A DNA stretch of 64,000 nt from an uncultured Bacteroidia bacterium (GTDB taxonomy: Bacteria; Bacteroidota; Bacteroidia; NS11-12g; UBA9320), in the NCBI GenBank assembly GCA_943787465.1, contig CALSMN010000006.1, positions 124,001-188,000 on the forward strand, written 5' to 3'. Shown piece after piece: positions 7,995 to 62,841 of the stretch. Positions within the stretch are counted from its first letter, which is position 1. Every line of letters begins with the position of its first letter. Position numbers and translations under genes: made by a program. A model generated the notes under the pieces. It worked only from the letters and a program-made list of their open reading frames with translations. It searched no databases and had not been told where the DNA came from.

Positions 7995-8522
7995 ATGGAA
8001 ATAGGATCGAATCTCTTTAAATTTAGCTTAAAAGGAACTAACAATAGGCTTTATGACAATTTTGCTTTTGCAGATAGAACAGCATTAGTAATTGTAGTTA
8101 CTTGTAATCATTGTCCATATGCCAGAGCGTACTGGAAAAGATTAATCAAATTATATAACCAATTCGAGGAAGATAATTTAGGAATCTTAGCTATTAATCC
8201 GAATGATGCAGAAGCATATCCTGCCGATTCGTTTGAGGCCATGAAAGAACTTCAAAAACAACTAAAGCTTCCCTTCCCATACCTTCACGATGAGGATCAA
8301 AAAGTAGCAAAGAAACTGAAAGCTAATCGTACTCCGGAAGTGTTTGTGTACAATAGTAAAAGAAAACTAGTGTATAAGGGGGCAATTGATGATAATTGGG
8401 AAAATGAAAATATGGTTACTCGTGTATTTCTTGAAGATGCGATCGAATATACATTAGATGGCATGGAACCCGATTATTCTGAAATTCCTGCTGTTGGATG
8501 CAGCATCAAATGGAAAAAATAG
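7995..8522 (+). CDS. Thioredoxin-fold (AhpC/TSA-like) redox protein
   Basis: Thioredoxin-like protein related to peroxiredoxin/TlpA families. From the ATG at 7995 it has 175 residues. The motif TCNHCPYARAY places a CxxC pair at Cys37 and Cys40, with the cis-Pro region in RTPEVFVY. The frame is open upstream to 7881, but those 38 residues do not resemble the family and a promoter-like box overlaps them, so I start at 7995. Family members of this CNHCPY type are usually annotated only as thioredoxin family protein; substrate unknown. The SDR gene follows after 6 bp. Confidence 0.85.
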   Translation: MEIGSNLFKFSLKGTNNRLYDNFAFADRTALVIVVTCNHCPYARAYWKRLIKLYNQFEEDNLGILAINPNDAEAYPADSFEAMKELQKQLKLPFPYLHDEDQKVAKKLKANRTPEVFVYNSKRKLVYKGAIDDNWENENMVTRVFLEDAIEYTLDGMEPDYSEIPAVGCSIKWKK

Positions 8523-60588: not shown

Positions 60589-60840
60589 ATGAAAAACGAA
60601 ATACACCCAAGCAATTACCGATTAGTGGTATTTAAAGATATGTCCAATGGTTATCAGTTTCTTACCAAGTCATGTGTAGAAACAAAAGAAAATATTACCT
60701 ACGAAGATGGAAATGAATACCCCGTGTACAAGTTAGAGATATCTAGCGCATCTCATCCATTCTACACAGGTAAAACTAATTTTGTGGATACCGCTGGTCG
60801 AATTGATAAATTCAATAAGCGTTTTGCCAAAAAGAAATAA
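60589..60840 (+). CDS. rpmE2: 50S ribosomal protein L31 type B
   Basis: Ribosomal protein of 83 residues ([28 protein letters not shown]...). It is the zinc-free type B form: the CxxC zinc pair of type A L31 is absent and only one Cys remains (TKSCVET). The [11 protein letters not shown] and [13 protein letters not shown] segments fit. It has its own consensus promoter and a terminator 23 bp after the stop. The leader of about 70 nt is long for this compact genome and might hold a control element. Confidence 0.94.
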
Positions 60841-60863: not shown

Positions 60864-60893
60864 AAGGCTCTCTATATTTGGAGAGCTTTTTTT
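60864..60893 (+). terminator. rpmE terminator overlapping the next gene's promoter
   Basis: Stem AAGGCTCTC / GAGAGCTTT (9 bp with one wobble), then a T-run that ends exactly at the ATG of the next gene (60894). The loop TATATTTG is itself a consensus -7 box. Confidence 0.75.
60873..60880 (+). promoter_or_regulatory. Putative -7 promoter box inside the rpmE terminator loop
   Basis: TATATTTG matches TAnnTTTG and ends 13 bp before the ATG at 60894, a spacing like that of clpC (15) and carA (17) here. No -33 TTTG is seen at 19-21 bp upstream. Confidence 0.42.
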
Positions 60894-62084
60894 ATGAATG
60901 TAATATTATTTGATGATCATGGAAGGACAAATCTTTTGCCCTTGACCTTTACCAGACCGTGTAGTGAATTGAAAGTAGGTATTCAAACTATTACTGAAAA
61001 ATGGCAGAGAACTTTATCATTAAGTGTTTCATTCATCACTCAAGATTATTTATCAGCCAAATACCCTACTAAATTTTCGAAAGATAATTTATACATCAAT
61101 GGAAGAGTACTTCCAAATGAAAATCTGATAACTCAGATAAAAAAACTATCCATTGGAGAATGTTTAATGAATGATAAAGAAATAATTGCTATTAGATCTA
61201 ATCATCAATTTAAAAATTATAAGGAGATACAAGAAACCAATCTAACAACTAATTCCAGTGAAGTTGATTGCACTAAAATAGCATTTGTATATGATATTTT
61301 TACGTTTAATGGGTCTGAGATTATACAAGATTATGCTCAATTAACCAAAGGGAAAACCTCTTACAAACTTTCTTCAACAAATACCGTAATAGGTGATGAA
61401 ATATTCATTGAGGAAGGAGTAAACGCTGAAGCGGCTGTATTCAATTGCACTCATGGACCTATTTATCTGGGTAAAGGATCAACAGTGATGGAAGGAAGCT
61501 TAATCAAAGGACCTTTTTCTCTTGGTGAATATTCAACAGTTAAAATGGGGGCTAAAATTTATGGAGACACCTCTATAGGCCCAAATTGTAAAGTAGGTGG
61601 AGAAATAAGTAATTCTGTATTTTTAAAAAATAGTAATAAAGGCCACGATGGATTTTTAGGCAATTCGGTAATCGGAGAATGGTGCAACCTTGGAGCAGAT
61701 ACGAACAGTTCTAATTTGAAAAATAATTATGCTAATGTAAAACTTTGGAATTATAATAAACAGCGATTTATTGACACAGGACTTCAATTTTGTGGGCTAA
61801 TTATGGGAGATCATAGCAAATGTGGCATCAATACGATGTTTAACACAGGAACAATAGTGGGTGTCTCTGCCAATATATTTGGAAGTAACTTTCCTAGAAA
61901 TTACATTCCATCTTTTACATGGGGAGGATCAGCCGGTTTTGCCACTTATCAGACTGATAAAGCTTTTCAAACTGCAATCAAAGTGCTTGAAAGAAGAAAT
62001 ATAATATTTACAGAAATTGACAAAAATATGCTCAAAACCATATTTGAAGAAACGGCTCAATATAGATTTTGGGAAAAAAATTAA
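60894..62084 (+). CDS. GlmU-like sugar-1-phosphate nucleotidyltransferase
   Basis: Two-part protein of 396 residues: a reduced nucleotidyltransferase-like N-terminus (NVILFDDHGRTNLLPLTFTRPCSELKVGI) and a left-handed beta-helix C-terminus of hexapeptide repeats (for example GEYSTVKMGAKIYGDTSIGPNCKVGGEI and KCGINTMFNTGTIVGVSANI). This Bacteroidota family is usually annotated as a putative sugar nucleotidyltransferase; the reaction is unproven. The ATG at 60894 matches the family start exactly although it abuts the rpmE terminator. tpiA follows 7 bp downstream. Confidence 0.88.
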   Translation: MNVILFDDHGRTNLLPLTFTRPCSELKVGIQTITEKWQRTLSLSVSFITQDYLSAKYPTKFSKDNLYINGRVLPNENLITQIKKLSIGECLMNDKEIIAIRSNHQFKNYKEIQETNLTTNSSEVDCTKIAFVYDIFTFNGSEIIQDYAQLTKGKTSYKLSSTNTVIGDEIFIEEGVNAEAAVFNCTHGPIYLGKGSTVMEGSLIKGPFSLGEYSTVKMGAKIYGDTSIGPNCKVGGEISNSVFLKNSNKGHDGFLGNSVIGEWCNLGADTNSSNLKNNYANVKLWNYNKQRFIDTGLQFCGLIMGDHSKCGINTMFNTGTIVGVSANIFGSNFPRNYIPSFTWGGSAGFATYQTDKAFQTAIKVLERRNIIFTEIDKNMLKTIFEETAQYRFWEKN

Positions 62085-62091
62085 GAGATAA

Positions 62092-62841
62092 ATGAGAAAA
62101 AAAATTGTTGCTGGAAACTGGAAAATGAACCTTGATCTTAATCAAGGAGAAAAATTACTTAAAGAACTCCTAGAAAAAAAAATCAATCAAGAGGTTACTA
62201 CTGTCATCGCACCACCCTACATTCACCTGAGTAGCTTTCGAGAGTTAATATCCAATTCAACGATAAAACTTGCTGCACAAAATTGTCATCAACAAGAAAA
62301 TGGAGCTTACACCGGTGAGATATCTATTGGGATGCTAAAAAGTGTAGGTGTTGAGTATGTTATTGTTGGACATAGTGAAAGACGTGAATATTTTTTAGAA
62401 GATAGTTTAGCTTTATCATTTAAAGTAACCAATCTGATTAATCAAGGTATGAATCCGATATACTGTTGCGGAGAGACATTATCACAAAGAAAAGATGGTG
62501 ATCATTTCAGTGTCATTAAAAAACAAATTGAACAAGGGCTTTTCCAATTGAATGAGATGGAATTATCTCAATGTATCATTGCTTATGAACCCGTTTGGGC
62601 TATAGGAACAGGTGAAACAGCAACTCCTGAACAAGCTCAAGAAATACATCATCATATCCGTAAGACAATAGCTAATCAATATGGCGAAATAATAGCCAAT
62701 TTAATTCCCATCTTATATGGAGGAAGCGTAAAACCAAATAATGCAAAAGAACTATTTAGCTGCAGTGACATAGATGGTGGATTAATTGGTGGAGCAGCAC
62801 TAAATGCAAGTTCCTTTTCTGATATTATAAATAGCTTTTAG
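62092..62841 (+). CDS. tpiA: Triosephosphate isomerase
   Basis: Interconverts dihydroxyacetone phosphate and glyceraldehyde 3-phosphate. The 249-residue barrel has Lys in AGNWKMN, the catalytic His in VGHSERR, the catalytic Glu in AYEPVWAIGTGETATPEQA and the YGGSVKPNN phosphate loop. ATG at 62092, 7 bp after the GlmU-like gene. The stop overlaps the stop of the convergent gene by 4 bp. Confidence 0.96.
   Translation: MRKKIVAGNWKMNLDLNQGEKLLKELLEKKINQEVTTVIAPPYIHLSSFRELISNSTIKLAAQNCHQQENGAYTGEISIGMLKSVGVEYVIVGHSERREYFLEDSLALSFKVTNLINQGMNPIYCCGETLSQRKDGDHFSVIKKQIEQGLFQLNEMELSQCIIAYEPVWAIGTGETATPEQAQEIHHHIRKTIANQYGEIIANLIPILYGGSVKPNNAKELFSCSDIDGGLIGGAALNASSFSDIINSF

Follow-up and report, generated by a model that had tools for sequence, protein, structure and literature searches.

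A terminator hairpin with a conserved candidate promoter box at its apex between rpmE2 and a GlmU-like gene in Bacteroidia

An overlap between a terminator and a promoter is an already known kind of arrangement. In E. coli, the terminator of the frd operon overlaps the promoter-attenuator region of ampC, where it is situated 3' of the ampC start, in the leader of that gene. Part of frdD lies within the ampC promoter, which is provided with an attenuator (PMC11796351). It was also described that E. coli RNA polymerase often remains bound to DNA once it has terminated and can start again at a promoter close by in vitro (PMC6978380, PMC6978322, PMC11347151). For the Bacteroidota, work on F. johnsoniae established a -7 box with the consensus TAHHTTTG and a weak -33 element (PMC6847099), with transcription starting 4-5 nt after the box, whose G lies at -5 (PMC6847099; see also PMC7366714). 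A literature search for promoters inside terminators in bacteria yielded nothing on point. Here, a locus is described at which a box of the Bacteroidota type forms the apex of a terminator hairpin.

In the window (the whole stretch of 64,000 nucleotides that was analysed), three genes follow each other on the forward strand, and all features described below lie on the same strand. rpmE2 (60589-60840) encodes the type B ribosomal protein L31 of 83 aa (NF002462, 128.9 bits, cut-off 86; Pfam PF01197), the second gene (60894-62084) a GlmU-like bifunctional sugar-phosphate nucleotidylyltransferase (TIGR03991 alt_bact_glmU, 444.2 bits, cut-off 225.3), and tpiA (62092-62841), which begins 7 nt 3' of the GlmU-like stop, triosephosphate isomerase (TIM). 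The names given to these genes in an earlier, sequence-only reading were thus upheld by the profile matches. For the GlmU-like gene, the start of the profile and the relatives concur on the start codon at 60894. rpmE2 and the GlmU-like gene are adjacent in most of the Bacteroidota loci that were fetched.

Positions 60864-60896 read AAGGCTCTC-TATATTTG-GAGAGCTTT-TTTT-ATG. Both a pattern scan and RNA folding detected a terminator hairpin at 60864-60889, which is the predicted end of the rpmE2 transcript. Its 5' arm is AAGGCTCTC (60864-60872), its apex TATATTTG (60873-60880) and its 3' arm GAGAGCTTT (60881-60889), and the T-run of seven (60887-60893) abuts with its 3' end the ATG of the GlmU-like gene. 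The hairpin has 11 pairs and a folding energy of -14.3 kcal/mol, and none of 200 shuffled sequences was equally stable. The earlier reading had placed the -7 consensus in the loop of the rpmE terminator and the end of the T-run at the GlmU-like ATG, which sequence, scan and folding confirmed. Its description of the box as the loop held in so far as the box forms the hairpin apex. A fully open loop of 8 nt was not obtained: the most stable fold joins the outer letters of the box in two pairs (U-G, A-U) and leaves only 4 nt (UAUU) unpaired. The GC-rich hairpin followed by a T-run, the hallmark of an intrinsic terminator, was kept in 15 of 15 relatives.

The hairpin occurs in a single copy per genome, and a search of all genomes of the genus that allowed up to 3 mismatches found no further copies. 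At least six T in the last 7 nt before a start codon were detected for 4 of 362 genes, which makes the T-run a rare context. Motifs were counted in 464 kb, made up of 400 kb of contig 4 and the window, and among the 37 intergenic terminator-like sites in this sample only the rpmE2 hairpin carries a box at its apex. A second terminator with a T-run ending at an ATG follows a cold-shock-type gene (L129, about 8170-8210; G000 contig 4, about 78170); its loop, TTGT, contains no box, and relatives have not kept this arrangement.

As a candidate -7 box of the GlmU-like gene, TATATTTG fits TAHHTTTG and lies at -21 relative to the ATG. In the 464 kb, 57 occurrences of TAnnTTTG at -30 to -11 were counted upstream of ATGs that follow an intergenic gap, compared with 4 of the reversed pattern. 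The distance of -21 falls inside this enriched range, and the identification of the loop word with the -7 box of the phylum, as proposed earlier, is supported by this enrichment just upstream of ATGs. For the word itself, the genome shows no enrichment (69+77 occurrences, against 79+68 for the reversed word); its frequency alone is therefore uninformative, and its significance comes from position and conservation. A -33 TTG (TTTG/TTG) is absent at this site and is not visible genome-wide among the predicted promoters either. By the whole score of its flanks, the box ranks at the 4th percentile among 68 promoters predicted in this genome, and a G directly after the box, as present here, occurs in 3 of these 68, typical flanks being a usual trait and not a strict requirement. 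These poor surroundings are a cost of enclosing the box in a GC-rich stem. A scan with the sigma-70 consensus was set aside, as promoters of this phylum follow another model. In the G000 sample (L126-L145 and the window), TAnnTTTG peaks at -13/-12 before ATGs, a peak that holds 16 of the 77 boxes between -44 and -8. The boxes at -13/-12 predict leaderless mRNAs for about one fifth of the promoters in this sample, more than the 3.7% of 5' UTRs shorter than 10 nt in B. thetaiotaomicron.

We consider it likely, in line with the earlier reading, that a single element of about 30 bp ends the rpmE2 transcript and, on the same strand, starts the mRNA of the GlmU-like gene and tpiA. The transcribed element at the end of rpmE2 would fold into an intrinsic terminator, and the DNA of its apex would be recognised by the main sigma factor as a -7 box. 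The 3' arm of the stem would double as discriminator and start region: with the spacing of F. johnsoniae (PMC6847099), polymerase is predicted to start at 60885 or 60886, giving a leader of 8-9 nt, (G)CUUUUUUU, most of which is the T-run. This is close to the leader of about 10 nt suggested by the earlier reading. The new mRNA would be unable to form the hairpin, because the 5' arm is missing from it. In RNA reading through from rpmE2, the hairpin would stand 4-7 nt before the AUG and poor translation is expected. Since the polymerases would cover the same DNA, we propose that termination and promoter opening are mutually exclusive, and a polymerase released on top of the promoter after termination could be helped to re-initiate. 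Within 80 nt upstream of tpiA, no TAHHTTTG was found in 13 of the 14 loci of the genus that hold tpiA; the promoter in the loop would therefore probably serve both genes, and tpiA is probably carried on the GlmU-like mRNA.

The conservation of the element was analysed in 15 loci of the same genus (g1) that contain the whole gap between rpmE2 and the GlmU-like gene. In 15/15 loci the hairpin has TATATTTG as its apex, at a distance of 21-24 nt upstream of the ATG, and a T-run of seven to nine follows the stem in all of them. Neutral sites are saturated at this distance, with a mean identity of 0.36 at 4-fold sites of the GlmU-like gene and 0 of 48 columns invariant; protein identity averages 0.66. 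The central 8 nt of the hairpin have an identity of 1.00, with both H positions of the box invariant, and the stem has 0.94, and the 14 nt directly 5' of the stem vary (0.61). Control terminators of the same genus, after tsf, rpsT, csp and HU, have identities of 0.34, 0.36, 0.41 and 0.49 in the central 8 nt and 0.37-0.51 in the stem, with 10-15 distinct centres among 16-17. The separate check of loop and stem in relatives that had been suggested with the earlier reading was therefore passed: the loop is kept throughout g1, TAHHTTTG recurs in two more genera (see below) and control loops vary. That a terminator loop merely happens to fit a degenerate 6-letter consensus would agree with the lack of enrichment of the word and with the single box-at-apex hairpin in 464 kb, but conservation in 15/15 loci at saturated divergence and in the two further genera leaves chance a next to negligible probability.

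Across g1 and genus g5, four pairs of the stem are variable, and pairing is preserved in 100% of cells, every time through a G-U on the sense strand. As no two-sided compensatory change is among them, the support that they lend to the stem is modest. The near-perfect palindrome with two arms strongly conserved in sequence could also be read as a 22-bp inverted repeat, GGCTCTC-N8-GAGAGCC, which would lie over the promoter of the GlmU-like/tpiA operon and serve as the operator of its dimeric DNA-binding regulator, the terminator shape being secondary. However, each stem substitution breaks the symmetry of the DNA and keeps the G-U pairing of the sense strand, so that a hairpin in the RNA explains the four pairs better than an operator palindrome does. 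The single copy of the repeat per genome and the T-run of seven to nine in all loci, in a context shared by so few genes, also speak against an operator, to which we give very little credence.

Outside g1, hairpins with a box at the apex were found in genus g2 (L015), which has CTCC-TATCTTTG-GAGAG, and in g5 (L254), which has CTC-TATCTTTG-GGGAG. Both apices differ from TATATTTG only at a free H position of TAHHTTTG. In g7 (L257), TAATTTAG is a degraded match to the box. In g8, the loop holds no box, and the terminator is followed by TAATTTTG at -12 in 3 of the 4 genomes compared. The rpmE hairpin of g8 (L020, L029, L030, L253) has the apex AATTCG, is of the CTCAATTCGAG type and is conserved without a loop box at a 4-fold identity of 0.27-0.38.

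In the last 60 nt before the GlmU-like gene, strict TAHHTTTG is present in 35 of 88 loci outside g1, compared with 2 for the reversed pattern. As it is missing in the other 53, a promoter in this strict form is not universal. Where present in the order and phylum outside g1, g2 and g5, the box lies mostly at -12 to -14, and in ten further members of the order, read separately, at -11 to -13; boxes at -12 to -14 predict mRNAs with no leader or almost none. The usual box at -12 is missing exactly where the loop box is present. Thus the GlmU-like gene often has a promoter-like box of its own just 3' of the rpmE terminator, which in g1, g2 and g5 lies inside the hairpin, and this is the strongest reason for reading the loop as a promoter. 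In Sphingobacteriaceae-like genomes, the stems of the rpmE terminators are conserved and their loops are not (identity of the centre 0.30; 14 distinct among 14). There, the terminator T-run runs straight into TATTTTTG at -12 to -14 upstream of the GlmU-like gene (L034, L036, L065, L067, L074-L077, L083, L084, L086, L095, L098, L100, L105). This fusion would be a second form of terminator/promoter overlap, with a GlmU-like mRNA predicted to be nearly leaderless.

Loop and stem of the rpmE2 hairpin are both conserved against saturated neutral sites, as overlapping selection would leave them, with the caveat of the g8 hairpins. The conservation of both arms and of the H positions is greater than a -7 box needs. 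Together with the g8 hairpin, which is kept without a loop box, this over-conservation makes it possible that the 3' ends of rpmE in this family are under an additional constraint at the RNA level. On a purely RNA-level account, the rpmE2 hairpin would be kept as an unusually constrained terminator or as an element of the 3' UTR such as the binding site of a protein, the match to the -7 box would be incidental, and the GlmU-like gene and tpiA would be transcribed by read-through or depend on a more distant upstream promoter. The preservation of RNA pairing by every stem change and the poor promoter context of the box agree with such an account. On the other side, the changes of the apex over three genera are confined to a free position of TAHHTTTG, and the box at -12 is absent in just those genera that have the loop box. 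A second TAHHTTTG between the ATGs of rpmE2 and the GlmU-like gene was absent from 14 of 15 g1 loci, the exception being G000 with one more at -117. Moreover, the Sphingobacteriaceae-like terminators keep their stems and not their loops. Taken together, we think a purely RNA-level origin of this conservation unlikely and favor the dual role of the element as terminator and promoter.

If the element has this dual role, the two events may also be coupled. A positive coupling is possible because E. coli polymerase can restart near terminators in vitro (PMC6978380, PMC11347151), occlusion being the opposite possibility. In such a transcription relay, polymerases finishing rpmE2 would restart at the GlmU-like/tpiA promoter without read-through or, with the opposite sign, rpmE2 traffic would occlude this promoter, and the initial T-run could add a sensitivity of initiation to UTP. 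We consider this relay improbable; if true, it would couple transcription of a ribosomal protein to the expression of amino-sugar and glycolysis genes. The predicted leader (60887-60893) is almost all U, and a T-run near the start could allow UTP-sensitive slippage, which is speculative; UTP is also a substrate of the GlmU reaction.

Terminator loops are usually treated as free sequence, and the loop described here seems to hold an element of a promoter that is conserved. The locus would be a minimal natural case of ending one transcript and starting the next on the same bases. It opens to test the restart of terminator-recycled polymerase at an adjacent promoter in cells and the tolerance of overlapping signals in compact genomes. 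Separate annotation of promoters and terminators would miss such overlaps.

Compared with the known systems, the locus resembles frd/ampC in that sequence is shared by the end of one operon and the promoter region that belongs to the following one, and a terminator hairpin lies beside the downstream gene. It differs in that the hairpin apex is formed by the candidate -7 box and the predicted start lies in the 3' arm, so that the new mRNA would be without the hairpin. With the primary-sigma promoters of the Bacteroidota (TAnnTTTG/TAHHTTTG; PMC6847099, PMC7366714, PMC9723704) it shares the box, its distance to the ATG and the lack of a visible -33 element, whereas the GC-rich stem that encloses the box, the G that follows the box and the T-run as initial transcribed sequence set it apart. 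As in polymerase recycling, a terminator adjoins a candidate promoter, so that a recycled polymerase could restart; the E. coli work in vitro used separate elements, while here the distance is zero. In the Sphingobacteriaceae-like rpmE terminators (e.g. L034, L036: GGGACTTTTTTTATTTTTG..ATG), terminator and candidate GlmU-like promoter likewise share bases (T-run, box), but there the box lies in the tail and not in the loop, and a nearly leaderless mRNA is predicted.
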